Below the pieces are notes generated by a model. It was not told where the DNA came from and did not search any database. It was given only the letters and a program-made list of their open reading frames with translations. From IMG/VR virus record IMGVR_UViG_3300035698_003858, positions 1 through 54,409 of that record: DNA of 54,409 bases, one strand, 5' to 3'. Made by a program: the position numbers and the translations under genes. Every line of letters begins with the position of its first letter. Position 1 is the first letter of the stretch. Shown here one piece after another: positions 45,001 through 51,536 of the stretch. This DNA is from a virus.

Positions 45001-46041
45001 ACATCCAACAACATTGGATGGATACCAGACTTCATTGAGAACAGAGCCAGTGGTGACGATGAAAGCGTACAGGTCTCTTCAGAAACATCATGGGTTAGCT
45101 GGCCTGCTGCTAGTGACGGACATGTCGGTATGCAGTTCGATGACTCCTTGACTCTGGAAGACAAGAAGGTTTTGGTTCATACTGATCTTAATGTAACCAG
45201 AAAAGAACAGGCAGCCCTTGTCGGTACTAATGTATTGACTGAAGCTATGCGTTCTATGTACAGGAACAAGATCACTATACTGGGTAGGTCCATTAAGCCA
45301 TGGGACTATGTCATCATCAATGACAAGTACACAGACATGCATGGACTGGTCGACGTAGAAAGAGTGGTGCATCACTATAGTGCATCAGATGGATGGATAA
45401 CAAACCTAGTACCACATGCTGCCTGTGAAGCCAATCCAGGTAACCGTAACATCCAGGCTGCTGTCTTTGCTTCCAAGATGGACCGTATCTTTGAGACAAC
45501 AGAGTACGCCTTTAACGCGCTGTTAATTCTTAGCTTCATTCCATCAGGTGGATCTTCAGTCGCACTAGGTTCTGCGATCAGAGGAGCCTTCGCTAACGCT
45601 AGTGGTAATGCACTCAAGCGTGGAGGTAAAGCCCTTGCTGCTTCCTCCGTCTCAGCTCAGATGCAAATCATGAAGAAAGCCCTCTTCAGTGATAGTAAGA
45701 AATTCCTACGTAACTACATGATTACAGAAGGACTTCTGTACGGTGGTACTTACTTCAATAGACTTATCCAGACTAACATGAGAGCTGGAAAAGATTCACT
45801 ACCGGTTATGATGATGCCACTCCAATTTAAAGGAGCACCTCTTCAGGCTGGTATGCACGGATCAGATCTGACCTATTGGTCTCTGGGGAGCAGAGTCCAC
45901 TGGGCACGTAAACACCTTATGGATTCTATCTCAGACCTCTGGACTCTGCTTGCAGATTTCGATGGCCCTCAATCTAGCGACAGACAGATCCTACTAGAAC
46001 GTCTTGCCGGTGTCAAACCTCTTAGCAACAACAACCTATAA
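39019..46041 (+). CDS. Giant baseplate hub-like protein
   Basis: 2340 aa, the largest product here. The N-terminal third (about residues 70-360) has beta-type segments (LQIGPLTFGSEVQSIKIIEQK, ALIGIELQTHPELPEAMIINL) seen in baseplate proteins. From about 1180 to 1330 the sequence IDITLDKYDASLAVIRIADP ... IQIRGGY ... LFTGRIAELQFGDVITVVAQG fits a hub of the gpD / gp27 type. IKPWDYVIINDKYTDMHGLVDVERVVHHY near 2090-2120 fits the end of that fold. Between them is a long unrecognised insert. A hydrophobic C-terminal part (about 2160-2260) is unusual for a hub. It starts just after the previous stop and runs into the next gene by TAATG. Confidence 0.65.
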   Translation: MVNNFTDETFTADVASVIAGDSSLESLQLQYSYEELKQIAPLLATSANKEQAKASSTSAYSHLDKSAVINRANLPALKAKFNKYIYASAPAETNLQIGPLTFGSEVQSIKIIEQKAIGVVQGVRSGTDFVVDNGSGDADVHATLLLSGHQHILDALRPLIALFRLSPITSVKNDIIKQALYNDFSENQVPTPEVQLLENARLEIELAFRTARRKELLQIVGRPQEDDISFALYTEAIEKGFPKLDDDIKVGYEKFLDSTRLQDLKPSDLKDQFQRNNVLDQHANENLNENRVDRTGYVPMALIGIELQTHPELPEAMIINLYMKRIDVGNFLTDFLQYRDVDGLPTADARDAFWLNRAIDLYVDTILPETFLGSGVMGGVTMHFQGDDVELEQFKRSNDLKAFKLDPKGGPDSTNKTAIGQMSYSVYNKFKFCRLLGKSYPTAQHMGSTSGTLRMNIKTSDDLEFERIHAYKSAADFFVRHTERFTRFNGWVVDSVFTRLLNFNPLGFSQDAYNQSTSDVEEFKLKRSFYPTQVVSTTDDQLPGTKHIVMEFKETNPDFFEEFGFTIKKGGYQVSILHEFFEALYDRAETVRVTASPDTMPEILKNNSGQYDMYAFETFFGFGNADYKAMLLNPDTIIAAMLEPTAYQDGNYISNANLPFKLMLKLAGDERLSGVIEAGGSTLDVIEEEFNSLALAFSGPLYLFNTEIELPIQLARELMDEYFVFRDSENIPVFTEAGAGNDTINISASRDYVEKLMIKIAEPDARDELYKYLISHSEVGFTDTFVQKLFTAIVKRRKVPITDRLYNRGGVISAFQSLSIALEARGQAFISEEALEPMSKKGSSEDKIIVGTDGRLKVGESQTTSYNDFFFLSYEELFNLSGTEFEDENNWQKFAPTFNELGIVHFDVKTIEDKGFTDEAVTALQNQIAVILQSPVPPSIFFYRENELEEMRISLKTEYTEWFDKMKSFILDIPYDIERATRDIHGRDTGSTEIAIDDNELVKKIGDQTSTRIEKMVERYRVKRPEEFRNKQRDVILQQVSKLIEAGKYSEEDIVQQALDGNLDDEFFREVSWFTETARDGVVLPFMLGTTLNSPVAKYNRVTGLAGEGILRTVVFGNEVRSYRNKEFRELVTSAVTTSAAGGLNGITVSDAHLEEVAASFLKITQAMPDNGNDIVKAFPTMRLYLIEDTGPNLVIQDNFYGYHAIQSIDITLDKYDASLAVIRIADPFHMLQGTAFSITDKGNLDNQIALPTNAEYDESLMERIKLRQGRSIQIRGGYSADPDHLDTLFTGRIAELQFGDVITVVAQGWKAELMGAQVEFEVNSVANSSVKDLVVKTVRGSNPKGFGEVYSGNEYQAIKNIAFDLGIEEEVGQMRTNSLGTHNGGGASGLSAGMFGFTLIQNRDAGLDTRLRNIWVPDNNRERYQYFKDISEHGWQGSRWVVPLTPAWEVLQNAAKYIWGYICQVVPYDGEATIFFGRPEQLYYHTGGRRNVGKAFRHLKQNSIAKVTGNWHDLMKPFFSSTHYNKDLQVLTKYAKTNFIIENKPGNYLQNAVNLRFDSSNPASAVMTLPNGFHSYMFYVKFTEHENTVGFFQGLENFADTLAPKHVETASEERLRLIKRDNLSQDFYSRDFEDIVNFIGNRQLVSRMMLSSFYGLSSQYVQKNVIGLEGFVRSMLEPMKDDGKSITLISNALDGWYTADEIQEGLGKGALESIGLTYERAVDWIQILQNPDEVKKFTDYLYNPTGKDRGPYSNDDIYSNMEFSIAEDNAIFNFIEKGGVLPQLMSAMSMYWSNTDKEKSENYGLTWAQFLKLGTGKGKTAYVDSGSNHGDVSLPSMSVIISNAITFYSVALAEKDSADKNKSALSAFFDNDIFAYHSRKLGNPTLADDLFSSNKEQMKELFIDNLWKFRTFVHYFARYIRDDMSTFPEEAAEAALQGLRDDHTFDPRLIHNMKVFRDYHYITDEKDIISNDIAATTREMHNTVIVRYPAELVTSNNIGWIPDFIENRASGDDESVQVSSETSWVSWPAASDGHVGMQFDDSLTLEDKKVLVHTDLNVTRKEQAALVGTNVLTEAMRSMYRNKITILGRSIKPWDYVIINDKYTDMHGLVDVERVVHHYSASDGWITNLVPHAACEANPGNRNIQAAVFASKMDRIFETTEYAFNALLILSFIPSGGSSVALGSAIRGAFANASGNALKRGGKALAASSVSAQMQIMKKALFSDSKKFLRNYMITEGLLYGGTYFNRLIQTNMRAGKDSLPVMMMPLQFKGAPLQAGMHGSDLTYWSLGSRVHWARKHLMDSISDLWTLLADFDGPQSSDRQILLERLAGVKPLSNNNL

Positions 46042-47183
46042 TGGTATCAACAAACAAATCTAGAGAAGCTGACAATCGTCGGAGAGATATTGGCTCCGGT
46101 GAATACTGGGAGCTATTGAATACTGACTTTCTTAACGTGTTCTTTGGAAACAATGCAATCAAGTCGGCTGTTCTTGCTTCCTTTGCTGCCTCTGGCCTCA
46201 TCACATGGGATGATAAACTTGGCATAGCCACCATGGGGACCTCTGAGAAGTTCAGTGTCCTGGTAGCTACTCCAGGCTCATGCAGGAGTATGGCTCAGTT
46301 TTTCAAGAGTCATGGCGGGATGAGTGGTATCAACAATAAGCTTGTCCCTAACAATGGTAGAGAGGAGATGATAGAAGCCATCACTAACGTCTTCTCCACT
46401 CACGTTAAGCTAGGAAGGATTCAGGACTATGGCATTGAAGGTACCAACGGACTAGCGAAGTTCAAGGCAGACCACTACACTCAGCCTGGTGAAACTTATC
46501 CTAGATTCAGACTCGTAACGGATCACACTGTTGACACTGGTAAGTCTGTAGGTTTCGCTCTTAGATCAAGTGCTCAGCCTGTTCAGAAAGAAGTGATCGT
46601 TCCTTCTAATCCAGCATACGCAAAGCGTGCCCAGGTTAAGCACAAGGCACAGAGTCAGAACACTCGGTTCAATAAGGCGAAGGTCGCACTTGCCTGGTTC
46701 AACGAAGAGAAGTCAACCACTGACTCCTATATTGCTGACACATTCATTAGCCCATCTGACGCAAATCATTTAGAGCAATTTATTTATGTCTCAAAAGAAG
46801 GGCGAATGGATCTCTTTAACGCATCAGAGCAGGCGACCACTCCTGCGATGTCCGTAGGTGGACCTCAGTCTAACCTACGTACACCTACTATTAACGAACA
46901 CCAGTGGGGAAGCAGGAAGCATTCTTACATGGACGAAGGGACAAAGGACAACCCTCTAGGGCAGCAAGCTCCTTCTTATTTTTCACCAACACCTTCTGTG
47001 GTGTCAAGCTTGTTCTCTCCACTAGGGTCTCTAGTTGATAACCCAGGATTGATAGTAGGACTTCTGGGGCTAGTTGCCTTACAGGAATCTAACAGTAACA
47101 ACAACTACACAGTCATACAAAAGACATTGCCTACCAATATTATAGACAATGCTGAAATAGAAAAAGAATTATTCGGAGAATAG
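46041..47183 (+). CDS. Unknown baseplate-region protein
   Basis: 380 aa. A globular N-terminal half (FLNVFFGNNAIKSAVLASFAASG, ITNVFSTHVKLGR) is followed by a basic middle (KRAQVKHKAQSQNTRFNKAK) and a hydrophobic stretch near 330-353 (PLGSLVDNPGLIVGLLGLVAL), then a polar tail. It overlaps the hub gene by one base and the gp25-like gene follows by two. No lysozyme or peptidase motif is seen. Baseplate assembly is probable by position only. Confidence 0.5.
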   Translation: MVSTNKSREADNRRRDIGSGEYWELLNTDFLNVFFGNNAIKSAVLASFAASGLITWDDKLGIATMGTSEKFSVLVATPGSCRSMAQFFKSHGGMSGINNKLVPNNGREEMIEAITNVFSTHVKLGRIQDYGIEGTNGLAKFKADHYTQPGETYPRFRLVTDHTVDTGKSVGFALRSSAQPVQKEVIVPSNPAYAKRAQVKHKAQSQNTRFNKAKVALAWFNEEKSTTDSYIADTFISPSDANHLEQFIYVSKEGRMDLFNASEQATTPAMSVGGPQSNLRTPTINEHQWGSRKHSYMDEGTKDNPLGQQAPSYFSPTPSVVSSLFSPLGSLVDNPGLIVGLLGLVALQESNSNNNYTVIQKTLPTNIIDNAEIEKELFGE

Positions 47184-47184
47184 C

Positions 47185-47622
47185 ATGGCAATATATAGCG
47201 AAAGAGGACTAGCTCTAACATTCAGTGGAGACCTACAAGTAGGTGCCAACGGTGATGTTAAGATAGATGATGCATTCGAGTCTGAGAAGTCAGCAGTAAA
47301 CTGGTTTCTTCGTACCAATAAAGGCGATTACGTACCAGACCAAAGGCTTGGTTGTAACGTCGGTACCTATATAGGCGATAAAATGTCTCGTAGTGTTCTC
47401 AGTCAATTAGAGGATTCTATCCTCAGTAACCTGGTTAAATTTGTAGCAGCTAGAACTGACATCAGAGTAGATGCAGTACCAATAGATTGCGATTCTGTGG
47501 GGATATTCGTTAGTGTTGGTGGAAAATACCTAGACACAGACGGAAACCTATTAGAGCCTGGGGTTGAAGTGTTGACTTATGTATTCCCATATCTCGAAGG
47601 GCAGCCTACACCTCTACCATAA
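47185..47622 (+). CDS. Baseplate wedge protein, gp25-like
   Basis: 145 aa. The segment NGDVKIDDAFESEKSAVNWFLRTNKGDYVPDQRLGCNVGTYIG matches the gp25-like / W-type baseplate wedge family, with the characteristic DxE/KSAVxWFLxTxxGxxxxDxxxG spacing and a helical SRSVLSQLEDSILSNL. The wedge proteins join the hub to the sheath. The next structural gene is baseplate J, the normal order, but an HNH gene has been placed between them. Confidence 0.85.
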   Translation: MAIYSERGLALTFSGDLQVGANGDVKIDDAFESEKSAVNWFLRTNKGDYVPDQRLGCNVGTYIGDKMSRSVLSQLEDSILSNLVKFVAARTDIRVDAVPIDCDSVGIFVSVGGKYLDTDGNLLEPGVEVLTYVFPYLEGQPTPLP

Positions 47623-47631
47623 TAGACCAAC

Positions 47632-48240
47632 ATGCCACGTAAACTACTTAAGACTTGCAAAAAATGCAATGAAGCAAAGTCTCTTGACGAGTTTCATAAA
47701 AATGCACAGTCTAGAGACGGCTACCGTCCTAGATGTAAGGTCTGTCGAAAAGCAGATTCTAAGATTGAATATAAAAATGCAGATGCAGAGCATAGAAGTA
47801 CCATTGCAAGAGTCAAGTATCTTCGCAATAGAGATCGTATATTGAAACGTAGTAAGTTGTATAGACAAAACAATAAAGATTACCTAAAACAGTATCATCA
47901 ACAATACTTAGCTGATCACTTAGATGAATATGCTGCTCGTACAGCAAAGAGACGTGCAATGAAAGTTCAGATTAACGAAGATTATACGGCAGAAGATAGG
48001 CAATTTACGGTAAGTCTATTTAAATCTCAATGTTTTAAATGCAAAACAACTAACCGACCAGAAATCGACCATCATATGCCTTTGTCTTTGGGTTATCCAT
48101 TGTCACGAGACAATGCTGTAATCCTATGTAAGTCATGTAACTCGTCTAAAGGTAATAAAATACCAACCGATTTCTATACAGAAGAAGAATACAATACCCT
48201 AACAGACCTACTAGGAGGTGTACTATCCCACGTAAACTAA
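47632..48240 (+). CDS. HNH homing endonuclease
   Basis: 202 aa. An N-terminal zinc-knuckle part has C9, C12, C35 and C38. After a long basic helical middle, a C-terminal HNH nuclease shows C134, C137, the D146-H147-H148 catalytic strand (EIDHHMP), N161 and C166/C169 (ILCKSCN). HNH proteins cut DNA at specific sites and promote spread of their own genes. It is more AT-rich than its neighbours and stands alone between two baseplate genes. No Shine-Dalgarno precedes its ATG. Its first codons share CCACGTAAACTA with the start of the next gene (47635-47646 and 48228-48239). Confidence 0.9.
   Translation: MPRKLLKTCKKCNEAKSLDEFHKNAQSRDGYRPRCKVCRKADSKIEYKNADAEHRSTIARVKYLRNRDRILKRSKLYRQNNKDYLKQYHQQYLADHLDEYAARTAKRRAMKVQINEDYTAEDRQFTVSLFKSQCFKCKTTNRPEIDHHMPLSLGYPLSRDNAVILCKSCNSSKGNKIPTDFYTEEEYNTLTDLLGGVLSHVN
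47635..47646 (+). repeat. Left copy of 12-bp repeat flanking the HNH insertion
   Basis: CCACGTAAACTA lies in codons 2-5 of the HNH gene, right after its ATG. An identical copy lies at 48228-48239 at the end of the HNH gene. Confidence 0.7.
48213..48220 (+). promoter_or_regulatory. Strong Shine-Dalgarno inside the HNH end, before an ATC
   Basis: AGGAGGTG (48213-48220) sits about seven bases before an ATC at 48225 that is in frame with the baseplate J gene. No usable ATG, GTG or TTG lies at this spacing in that frame, so the site points to ATC as the start of the J gene, or to one that was ATG in an ancestor. Confidence 0.6.
48228..48239 (+). repeat. Right copy of 12-bp repeat flanking the HNH insertion
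   Basis: Identical to 47635-47646. It covers the HNH stop region and codes PRKL in the frame of the next gene, just as the left copy codes PRKL after the HNH start Met. Confidence 0.7.
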
Positions 48241-48254
48241 AAAGCCTTGCCCAG

Positions 48255-49382
48255 ATGAATGCTGACAGTATAGCATACCTGGCCAACCATACAGACATTA
48301 CATATCTCACCGAAGGTAGTGTTGCTAGATCTCTTGTTGAAGCAACCAACGTAGAGATCTCTAGACTGCAAGAGTATATAGCTTCATCGTACCGTAACGT
48401 GTTCCCCAATACAGCGGAAGGGTTTTACTTAGACCTCATAGGGGAGGGTATAGGGCTAGCTAGAGCAGGAGCCACTAGGGGTTCATCAGGACTTGACGAT
48501 CAAAACGTCAAGTTCTCTGTTGTGGTAGGAGCTCTCGGAGATTACTTTGCTAACCCAGCAGACTCTAACCTAGGTCTAATCCCTAAAGGGACAACGATAA
48601 GTACTGGTGATGAGACGATTGTCTATGAAGTCTCTCAAAATACAACCTTCCCCTTCTCTGCTAAGGAAGCGTTCGTACCAGTAGTCGCCACATCAGACGG
48701 TGTGTTCACTCGCGTTGGTAAGAACAAGTTAGTCATACATGGTGGATCGAACATGGTCAACGTCACTAACGTCAAGCCTATAGCTAACGCTAGCACAGGA
48801 GAGACTGATAGGTCATACAGGTTCAGACTCCTGAACCACCTAACAGCCAGCCCCACAGGGAACCAGCTATCGGTCAAGCTATCTGTTATTGGCAACCCTG
48901 ACATAGCTCGGGTAGAGCTGAAAGAGTTCGCTAGAGGCGCGGGCACCTTTGATGCCCTCCTTGTCCCAGTAGGCAACACAGTCTCTACGACAACACAGAA
49001 CAGAGTACAGGCTTCTATAGACCAGGCGTCTTCTTTTGGTATCAACGGAAGAGCAGTCCAGCCTCAGTACAGAAGATTCAGAGTTAGCATACAGCTCATA
49101 CCAGTGAAGGGGAAGAGCAGTGGACTAGTTGACTCAGCTAAGATATCAGCCAAGAACGCTGTGCTTGACTACTTTGAAACCATACCTATCGGTGGCGAGT
49201 TGATCATCAATAGGTTGCGTTCCTCAATCATAGAGTCTGTTAATGATCAGATAAAGGACATCAAGATATTGGACCTATGCTTAGATGGTAGACCTCATAT
49301 CATTAGGAACATCAAGCTAAAGCCAGACGAATTATTCACACCAGACGTCAGTAGAGAATCTGACGCAATACAAATAGTATAG
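48255..49382 (+). CDS. Baseplate J-like protein
   Basis: 375 aa from ATG 48255; a start at ATC 48225 would add 10 residues (xPRKLKSLAQ). The sequence fits Baseplate_J: DITYLTEGSVARSLVEATNVEI near the N-terminus, FYLDLIGEGIGL, ETDRSYRFRLLNHLTASPTG and NPDIARVELKEFARGAGT. A C-terminal ISAKNAVLDYFETIPIGGEL follows. It is a wedge subunit like T4 gp6 / P2 J. No Shine-Dalgarno precedes 48255, while a strong one precedes the ATC, so the true start may be the latter. The HNH gene in front appears to have separated it from its gp25-like partner. Confidence 0.85.
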   Translation: MNADSIAYLANHTDITYLTEGSVARSLVEATNVEISRLQEYIASSYRNVFPNTAEGFYLDLIGEGIGLARAGATRGSSGLDDQNVKFSVVVGALGDYFANPADSNLGLIPKGTTISTGDETIVYEVSQNTTFPFSAKEAFVPVVATSDGVFTRVGKNKLVIHGGSNMVNVTNVKPIANASTGETDRSYRFRLLNHLTASPTGNQLSVKLSVIGNPDIARVELKEFARGAGTFDALLVPVGNTVSTTTQNRVQASIDQASSFGINGRAVQPQYRRFRVSIQLIPVKGKSSGLVDSAKISAKNAVLDYFETIPIGGELIINRLRSSIIESVNDQIKDIKILDLCLDGRPHIIRNIKLKPDELFTPDVSRESDAIQIV

Positions 49383-49383
49383 T

Positions 49384-49854
49384 ATGACAACTCATTGGAA
49401 ATTTTACCTACCAGAAGCACACCCCACTGGACTCGACGAGCAAGTTGGTGGAGCTATTAGCTCTACTGAACTGAAGCCATACCTGGGAGAACTATTCACA
49501 GACTTAGGTACTGACGCTCTCATAGCTAAGACACAATACCGTAAGGTCTTTGCTAAACAAGTTAGTGCCGAGACCTTTGACACTGTCCTAGTTGAACTAG
49601 GAAACGTAGAACATACAGGTCAGATCAGTTTCTATGCTGGTGACTTCACTGGCTTTGCTACTAATGCAGTCACCTTACCGAACGTACTGCAGTCAGACTT
49701 CTTCAGTGGCAACTCTACTACACACATGACCGGCTTGACCACCTCAGTAGAAGGTTCTACTATCCCAATCTGGATCAAAGAGTCTTTACCAGCAGGTGTA
49801 GCGGACGACGGTAAGGCTTCATTCACACTTAGGATTAGAGCTACGAAGACATAA
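49384..49854 (+). CDS. Hypothetical baseplate protein
   Basis: 156 aa, beta-type (TGQISFYAGDFTGFATNAVTL, PIWIKESLPAGVADDGKASF). It lacks catalytic motifs. It starts one base after the J gene and overlaps the next gene by TAATG. The position of a P2-I or gp7/8-like wedge component is possible; the sequence does not decide it. Confidence 0.5.
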   Translation: MTTHWKFYLPEAHPTGLDEQVGGAISSTELKPYLGELFTDLGTDALIAKTQYRKVFAKQVSAETFDTVLVELGNVEHTGQISFYAGDFTGFATNAVTLPNVLQSDFFSGNSTTHMTGLTTSVEGSTIPIWIKESLPAGVADDGKASFTLRIRATKT

Positions 49855-51536
49855 TGGTAACATCATACTACTCATCTACAGGAAACTATGGTTTCACAGC
49901 AGAGTATGCACAAGGGATTGAGGTTCTATATTCGTATATTGAACAAGATCCTTTCATTGCATACACCACTGTATCATATCTATACTCAGATGGAGTAGAT
50001 GGTGTTAAGCAAATCATAGGAAAGAGAGCGCCAGCTACTCAGGCCATCATGAACAACCTTCCTGAATGGATGGCCATGAGAAAAGAACACGACTCAGTAG
50101 GTCAGACACTGGCTCACTCATGGGGCGCTAACCTTGAAGACGCTAATGACTTGTTTAATGAGTATAGGAACGACCAATTCCTCTCAACTGCAGACCACTA
50201 TAGTGACATCCATATGGGGGTCTCGGAGCTGTCGTTTTCTGAAGAAAAAGTGTACACGTCAGATGTTCGCAATCTATTGTTCAACTCTAGCTTCTCTATG
50301 AAAGCTTTCGCTCGCTCTCAACGTCCTGAAGGATGGGGAGTCTCAAGGGACTCTCTTAATGACTTGACGTTCTCAGAAGATGAATCAATCTATGGCAACA
50401 GCGCTATCAGACTTGCAGGTGGTGTAGAGATGAAACAAGCCAGGGACCTTAAAGTTCCTGGTGGAGACATCACCTACAGTATCTATGCTAAGACAGAAAC
50501 AGATACAGGGGCAGCTTTAACTAGAAGATTTGACCCCACAGACGCTGGTCTGATTCTGACAATCCATTATGCAGACAACGAAGTAGATAGTTTTGGTGTA
50601 GGTTTTCCCAAGAACACTAAGAACGAATGGGCTAGGGTAGGACTCACAGTGAGCTTAACTAAAGAGGTTCATAGCTTTGAGGCTCTTATTGTTAATAGGA
50701 GCGCGACTCCTTTTGTTGTAGACCTACCAATGCTAGAAGGTAGCAAGGTGATACAGCCATGGTCTCCATCTATAGAAGACACTCCCATAGCTTTGACGGC
50801 CCCCTTCAAGAGCGTAACAGGTGTACAAGTTATAAGCTTAGGTCTAGACAATGATACTGTTAAAAAGATTGAGCTCCTTGAGCTTGGATCAGAAGCAGAG
50901 TTTTCTGATGTAACAATCCCAACTAGAGTCCTACCTTATTCCCCTCCTAAGGACTCTGGAAACTCTATTAACCTTGCACTAGGTAGGCAAGTGAACTTCT
51001 TTGAAGAGATTCATCCGACAATGTGGTTCGCTGAAGACGGAAAAATTACAGAGAAGTCTTTAACAACTCCAGATGAATTTGGAACGGTACAGCCAAGAGA
51101 CCTATTCAAAGATCAGAACGGAGACCTTTGGCTTGACGAGTCACTATCAGACGCTAACCTTACAGTCAAGGCGACTACTGTGTTAGGAAATAACCTACTA
51201 GTCCTAACTGAAGAGAGCTATGCAGGTAAGACTGCATACTACCTGAAGATAGTTAAGCCTGACAAGATCCTATATGAAGACACACGTGTTCAGTCTGTAG
51301 CTGACCTTGAGCTTCCGTTGGTTCTAAACAACCTTGGCATCTCAGCTGTGACTGAGGACATAGAGCGCATTGGTTTGTCCAAAGACATTCCAGGCGTTAT
51401 CTTTGTAGACACCACTCTCGATAGAAGATTCTATTACAAACTGAAATTCGACTACTACTACGCTGACTTTGGAGTTAGAAAACTCTTCTGTAGAGAGAGC
51501 TACGTAGATGACAACGCACACTTACAAATAATATAG
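49854..51536 (+). CDS. Baseplate or fibre protein with a carbohydrate-binding-like domain
   Basis: 560 aa. The first 130 residues are helical (FIAYTTVSYLYSDGVDGV). From about 140 to 300 a jelly-roll-like section (NLLFNSSFSMKAFARSQRPE, IYGNSAIRLAGGVEM, SIYAKTET) resembles galactose/carbohydrate-binding modules of phage fibres. The C-terminal half is beta-rich. It follows wedge genes and precedes the 909-aa fibre-like gene. A sugar-binding role on the host surface is inferred from domain style. Confidence 0.55.
   Translation: MVTSYYSSTGNYGFTAEYAQGIEVLYSYIEQDPFIAYTTVSYLYSDGVDGVKQIIGKRAPATQAIMNNLPEWMAMRKEHDSVGQTLAHSWGANLEDANDLFNEYRNDQFLSTADHYSDIHMGVSELSFSEEKVYTSDVRNLLFNSSFSMKAFARSQRPEGWGVSRDSLNDLTFSEDESIYGNSAIRLAGGVEMKQARDLKVPGGDITYSIYAKTETDTGAALTRRFDPTDAGLILTIHYADNEVDSFGVGFPKNTKNEWARVGLTVSLTKEVHSFEALIVNRSATPFVVDLPMLEGSKVIQPWSPSIEDTPIALTAPFKSVTGVQVISLGLDNDTVKKIELLELGSEAEFSDVTIPTRVLPYSPPKDSGNSINLALGRQVNFFEEIHPTMWFAEDGKITEKSLTTPDEFGTVQPRDLFKDQNGDLWLDESLSDANLTVKATTVLGNNLLVLTEESYAGKTAYYLKIVKPDKILYEDTRVQSVADLELPLVLNNLGISAVTEDIERIGLSKDIPGVIFVDTTLDRRFYYKLKFDYYYADFGVRKLFCRESYVDDNAHLQII

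Follow-up and report, generated by a model that had tools for sequence, protein, structure and literature searches.

Nuclease genes of phage T4 lie between conserved phage genes, often without a good ribosome-binding site, and are probably translated by coupling (PMC2988022). The T4 homing endonuclease genes are reported with their own AUG start codon, and mobA with GUG (PMC2988022). Other nuclease genes interrupt a coding region: MobE splits nrdA of phage Aeh1 and MobA splits the topoisomerase gene of T4 (PMC2988022, PMC5009743). Two further arrangements are known, an insertion with a hidden HNH gene in a phage methylase (PMC11855218) and T4 gene 60, where ribosomes bypass a gap of 50 nt and the gene is tied to a homing endonuclease insertion (PMC5009743).

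We analysed a stretch of 54,409 bases from an uncultured tailed phage (the window), in which an HNH nuclease gene separates a gp25-like baseplate gene from the baseplate J gene. Like the free-standing mob/seg homing endonucleases of T4, this gene occupies an intergenic site between conserved genes, has no promoter of its own that we could see, has a weak or absent ribosome-binding site and is likely translated by coupling (PMC2988022). Unlike them, it uses a copied start codon and codons of the downstream gene, which has lost its ATG. It also resembles the MobE/nrdA and MobA/topoisomerase cases in being inserted into the coding region of an important phage gene; whereas those genes are split mid-way, here only the start codon of J is affected and J stays in one piece. 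Insertion of a nuclease gene between conserved phage genes is already familiar, while a nuclease gene that captures the start of its target, and so deprives it of its ATG, is new relative to the known insertions. We consider it highly likely that a probable homing-type HNH gene was inserted at the start of J, so that the first 15 bp of that gene are now present twice. The features of the locus are as follows.

47185..47622, + strand: gp25-like baseplate wedge / sheath-initiator gene, intact through the stop codon and sharing 50% identity with the gene 5' of J in the related contig L093
47623..47631, + strand: spacer TAGACCAAC before the HNH start, without a Shine-Dalgarno sequence
47632..48240, + strand: HNH / endonuclease-VII-like nuclease ORF, 202 aa, both ends chimeric; PF14279 2e-7, PF01844 1.9e-6, phrog_1035 1.5e-25
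47632..47646, + strand: left copy of the J start, ATGCCACGTAAACTA, giving the HNH start codon and residues MPRKL, which are absent from HNH homologues
47647..48212, + strand: insert proper, LKTCKKC to ..YNTLTDLL (ends approximate), from alignment with the TunaTartare, Riptide and Jada nucleases
48195..48211, + strand: TACCCTAACAGACCTAC, alike at 14/17 positions to TACCATAATAGACCAAC at 47615-47631; the duplication may continue here in weaker form
48213..48220, + strand: Shine-Dalgarno sequence AGGAGGTG, within the HNH Gly-Gly-Val codons and preceding the J start
48225..48239, + strand: ATCCCACGTAAACTA, the right copy of the J start; native J codons 1-5, the first now ATC instead of ATG, aligning with MPRTL of L093
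48225..49382, + strand: baseplate J / gp6-like wedge gene, counted from ATC; PF04865 2.9e-12, phrog_6 1.2e-33
48255..48257, + strand: earliest in-frame ATG of J, 15 nt past the HNH stop; alternative start, with 10 residues lost

The window holds exactly two copies of the 12-bp sequence CCACGTAAACTA, at 47635 and 48228. Allowing for one mismatch, the repeat is 15 bp long (ATGCCACGTAAACTA at 47632-47646 versus ATCCCACGTAAACTA at 48225-48239), such that the second copy of ATGCCACGTAAACTA (47632) reads ATcCCACGTAAACTA (48225) at a spacing of 593 bp. Both 15-bp copies coincide exactly with gene starts, that of HNH on the left and that of J on the right. The preliminary description had placed the 12-bp copies just after the HNH start and at the HNH end, and both were found there; its statement that the right copy encodes PRKL in the J frame was borne out by translation, and the HNH stop is indeed formed by the repeat, the TAA at 48238-48240 comprising the last two bases of the right copy and the next A.

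Coincidence or an assembly artefact could be invoked, given that 12-bp repeats within 1 kb arise by chance at this window size and that the record is an uncultured contig. The window contains 10 such repeats at most 1 kb apart, versus a mean of 3 in simple shuffles; taken alone, a 12-bp repeat within 1 kb is not rare here and is unremarkable, whereas its register with two gene starts is not. When all pairs among the 37 gene starts of the window were compared, the HNH/J pair was an outlier (14/15 identical), and by our own arithmetic a match this good at two pre-specified positions is expected about once per 10^7 to 10^8. Usual assembly k-mers are longer than 15 bp, so a repeat of this length should not join unrelated contigs. 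With both gene starts in register, a right copy homologous to the J genes of relatives and HNH extensions that match the repeat exactly, we regard coincidence or artefact as very improbable.

The inserted protein belongs to the HNH superfamily, with PF14279 and PF01844 both above cut-off, and has the endonuclease VII-like arrangement of N-terminal CxxC knuckles and an HNH domain (phrog_1035, E 1.5e-25, residues 6-188). The HNH motif residues and cysteines are intact (D146-H147, N161 and N170, with C134/C137/C166/C169 aligned). The nuclease is putatively active and probably mobile. The gene had been described as more AT-rich than its neighbours, and its GC content (0.363; GC3 0.271) is in fact the lowest of the 37 genes, against 0.462 for the window.

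In alignment, the Met of MKTCK.C is the first residue of HNH homologues, and ..YPKLIAILE forms their end. The nearest nucleases found, the endonuclease VII / HNH proteins of the Streptomyces phages TunaTartare, Riptide and Jada (~30% identical over their full length; starts as annotated by depositors), begin MKTCK and finish near ..AILE. The window protein reads MPRKL+LKTCKKC...YNTLTDLL+GGVLSHVN, and its ends are J-derived: MPRKL equals J codons 1-5 in the J frame, and GGVLSHVN is the J leader and J start read in another frame. Because homologues are without such ends, MPRKL and GGVLSHVN are additions to the window protein, and because they derive from J, the HNH gene has no start codon and no stop of its own; its stop sits inside J. 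Among 92 related nuclease loci, surveyed with a start choice that followed the homologue match and thus favoured the short form, no other copy of a neighbouring gene's start was found. The one long repeat, at locus L228, was considered as a second start duplication and rejected: positions 1504-1960 hold two tandem zinc-knuckle nuclease fragments that share one 18-base start, TAATTATGAAAACATGTA.

A gp25-like family profile of 12 relatives matched T4 gp25 (5iv5_T, E 0.0033), 8v3w_L (6.8e-4), Pvc9 (6j0n_D) and sheath initiators; the window sequence alone gave no Pfam match. The J protein has the Baseplate_J domain, and its profile matches the baseplate component 9euf_C (4.3e-8). The structural genes of the window (10208-54267) are of the same lineage as those of Bacillus phage KLEB27-3, Moorella phage MTATph1 and Acinetobacter phage ME3, to which terminase and capsid are ~27-35% identical.

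Relatives were found via the major capsid protein and J, and whole records were then searched for J. At all 21 readable J loci in related contigs a gp25-sized ORF lies directly 5' of J, with no ORF of at least 40 codons between; nine of these upstream ORFs were confirmed as gp25-like by tblastn. In MTATph1 and KLEB27-3, too, a gp25-sized gene is followed by J with no nuclease between. Presence in the window and absence at the gp25/J junction of 21 contigs and two named phages is the distribution expected of a free-standing homing endonuclease. Neither of the two nearest relatives (G002 and G004) has the HNH gene, and in 3 of 30 other records searched the nuclease was detected, by weak matches elsewhere in the record; as records are fragments, absence genome-wide is weaker evidence than absence at the junction.

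In the empty site of L093, the gp25 stop is followed by AGGAGGT and then ATGCCTAGGACTTTAAAGACACTTGCTCAGATG. Its J start, TAAAGGAGGTCTAGCAAATGCCTAGGACTTTAAAGACACTTGCTCAGATG, encodes MPRTLKTLAQM and aligns with (I)PRKLKSLAQM of the window; this nearest J (58% protein identity; L094, 53%; L095, 38%) has the N-terminus MPRTLKTLAQMNAD, which matches the right copy, (I)PRKLKSLAQMNAD. The right copy is therefore the native J and the repeat is the ancestral J start. These comparisons uphold the suggestion that HNH parts two wedge genes that are normally adjacent, as gp25 and J adjoin in every relative examined, and support the entry of a foreign HNH gene at the J start, with adjacent genes, no HNH in the nearest relatives and a J-like peptide at the empty site. 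It had also been predicted that phages lacking HNH would carry one copy of the 12-bp sequence at the J start. The adjacency and the same start peptide (MPRTLKT versus PRKLKS) were found, but not the identical DNA, since J protein identity to the nearest relatives is no higher than 53-58%: in the nearest empty site, ATGCCTAGGACTTTA, all encoded residues but one agree, while most codons differ.

No match was obtained in a DNA-level search of phage records with window positions 46000-51500 or in a scan of viral contigs with the single J protein, and searches of viral and genome contigs for closer J relatives (N-terminal DNA pattern; close J alignment) returned only L093/L117 and L094 again. Against the insertion account, no relative found exceeds 58% J protein identity, and the case is a single instance, with no second among the 92 nuclease loci.

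In the history that we propose, a promoterless HNH / endonuclease-VII-like gene, probably free-standing and homing-type, would have inserted between the gp25-like gene and J, at the J start, a break there probably being repaired with HNH sequence. The event would have left the first 15 bp of J in two copies. The left copy would have been fused in frame to the nuclease, which would thus be read from the copied J start codon and carry the first five J residues. The right copy would have stayed on J, behind a strong Shine-Dalgarno sequence now overlapped by HNH coding sequence, and HNH would have lost its own stop, ending inside J and out of frame. We considered two routes for this insertion; the likelihoods given for them are shares within the insertion explanation and are not independent of it.

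The first route is a target-site duplication, in which the J start was nicked with a 15-bp stagger and fill-in synthesis took place on either side of the insert. It implies that the Shine-Dalgarno sequence of J came with the 3' end of the insert and that the native J leader was TAGACCAAC, free of a Shine-Dalgarno sequence and lacking AGGAGGTGTACT. Consistent with this route, the insert is directly bordered by two nearly identical copies, and most starts in the window are without a strong Shine-Dalgarno sequence; but to our knowledge HNH enzymes do not typically make a stagger of 15 nt, the AGGAGGT on the right is similar to the native leader in L093, and HNH similarity stops just at the Shine-Dalgarno sequence. 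We give this route a sizeable minority share. The second route, which we rate at somewhat under an even chance, is template switching during repair: HNH would have been attached ahead of the native leader of J, AGGAGGTGTACTATG, and the initial 15 bp of J recopied before HNH, the recopied stretch possibly including a diverged piece of the gp25 end. Similarity to other nucleases ending at the Shine-Dalgarno sequence and the AGGAGGT immediately after gp25 in L093 both speak for it, and for these reasons it is slightly favoured over the first. The weak upstream similarity of TACCCTAACAGACCTAC to TACCATAATAGACCAAC (14/17, equalled by 0.14% of random position pairs, a null of 0.0014) would also fit, but was noticed post hoc; downstream of the repeat, similarity was not significant (null 0.10). 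For this route, 13 nt must also have been lost separately from the left side.

The sole mismatch in the 15-bp repeat falls on the J start codon, which is ATG in the left copy and ATC in the right, a point absent from the preliminary description. This is odd for a functioning essential gene and counts against the insertion account. The aligned J start in the relatives read is ATG, except for TTG in two near-identical relatives, and in the window the J frame lacks ATG, GTG and TTG codons from the upstream stop at 48156 up to the ATG at 48255. The expectation that both genes kept a usable beginning is thus true of HNH, which has an ATG, and uncertain for J, which has either ATC or an internal ATG minus 10 residues. 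AGGAGGTG ranks second in length among the anti-Shine-Dalgarno matches of the listed genes, which are mostly weak; it ends 4 bases before ATC, and its AGGAGG 6 bases before. AUC is a weak start codon in E. coli. J may start at AUC with help from the Shine-Dalgarno sequence, or by re-initiation at the AUG at 48255 after the HNH stop at 48240; re-initiation drops with stop-to-start distance and is helped by a Shine-Dalgarno sequence (PMC2268962). Visual inspection for a minus-one frameshift from HNH into J showed no slippery heptamer ahead of the HNH stop codon, and RNA folding around both starts was not more stable than in shuffles.

Excision of 593 nt, one repeat plus the insert, would restore ATG-PRKL-J, an intact J with its ATG, which raises the question of a group I intron or other spliced element such as the methylase insertion with its hidden HNH gene (PMC11855218). 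However, positions 47000-49000 gave no Rfam intron match at E 10 that would point to an intron core, the ORF fills the insert, and the exact repeat would make the last base of the 5' exon equal to the last intron base, against the U...G rule of group I introns as we apply it here. Splicing is accordingly very doubtful. Still less probable is a ribosome bypass resembling that of T4 gene 60 but with a longer gap, in which ribosomes start at the left copy, skip 593 nt and land on the right copy. Take-off and landing sequences match, a Shine-Dalgarno sequence precedes the landing site, and gene 60 is likewise linked to a homing endonuclease insertion (PMC5009743); yet the T4 gap is 50 nt versus 593 nt here (PMC5009743), neither a stop nor structure lies near the left copy, and HNH reads through uninterrupted.

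Returning to the insertion account, we tentatively suggest, as a possibility with the odds against it, that the J start codon moved to the nuclease, leaving an essential baseplate gene that is AUC-initiated, rescued by a strong Shine-Dalgarno sequence within the nuclease gene and translationally coupled to the nuclease. If so coupled, loss of the nuclease ORF would harm J expression; and were J both to start at AUC and to depend on that ORF, this would be a simple route to a selfish gene that is hard to lose. The locus preserves the traces left when a nuclease gene settled, probably recently, at a new site, and it illustrates how translation signals can be taken by such a gene from its target. 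It also urges caution in automatic annotation: automatic ORF calling puts the J start at 48255, ten codons later than the start in relatives.

A related phage carries a nuclease in the same baseplate operon, one gene from the window's site. In record G033 (IMGVR_UViG_3300019487_000001), which has four such nuclease matches, a zinc-knuckle endonuclease VII gene (L108:505-1017; PF02945, 2e-21) lies directly before gp25; unlike the window HNH, it ends in an ordinary overlap without a repeat of its neighbour's start. The HNH part of the window gene (47930-48190) also gives weak matches to the IscB and Cas9d HNH families (NCBIfam ~1e-5, far below cut-off) and a profile match to a Csn1-family structure (2.9e-11).
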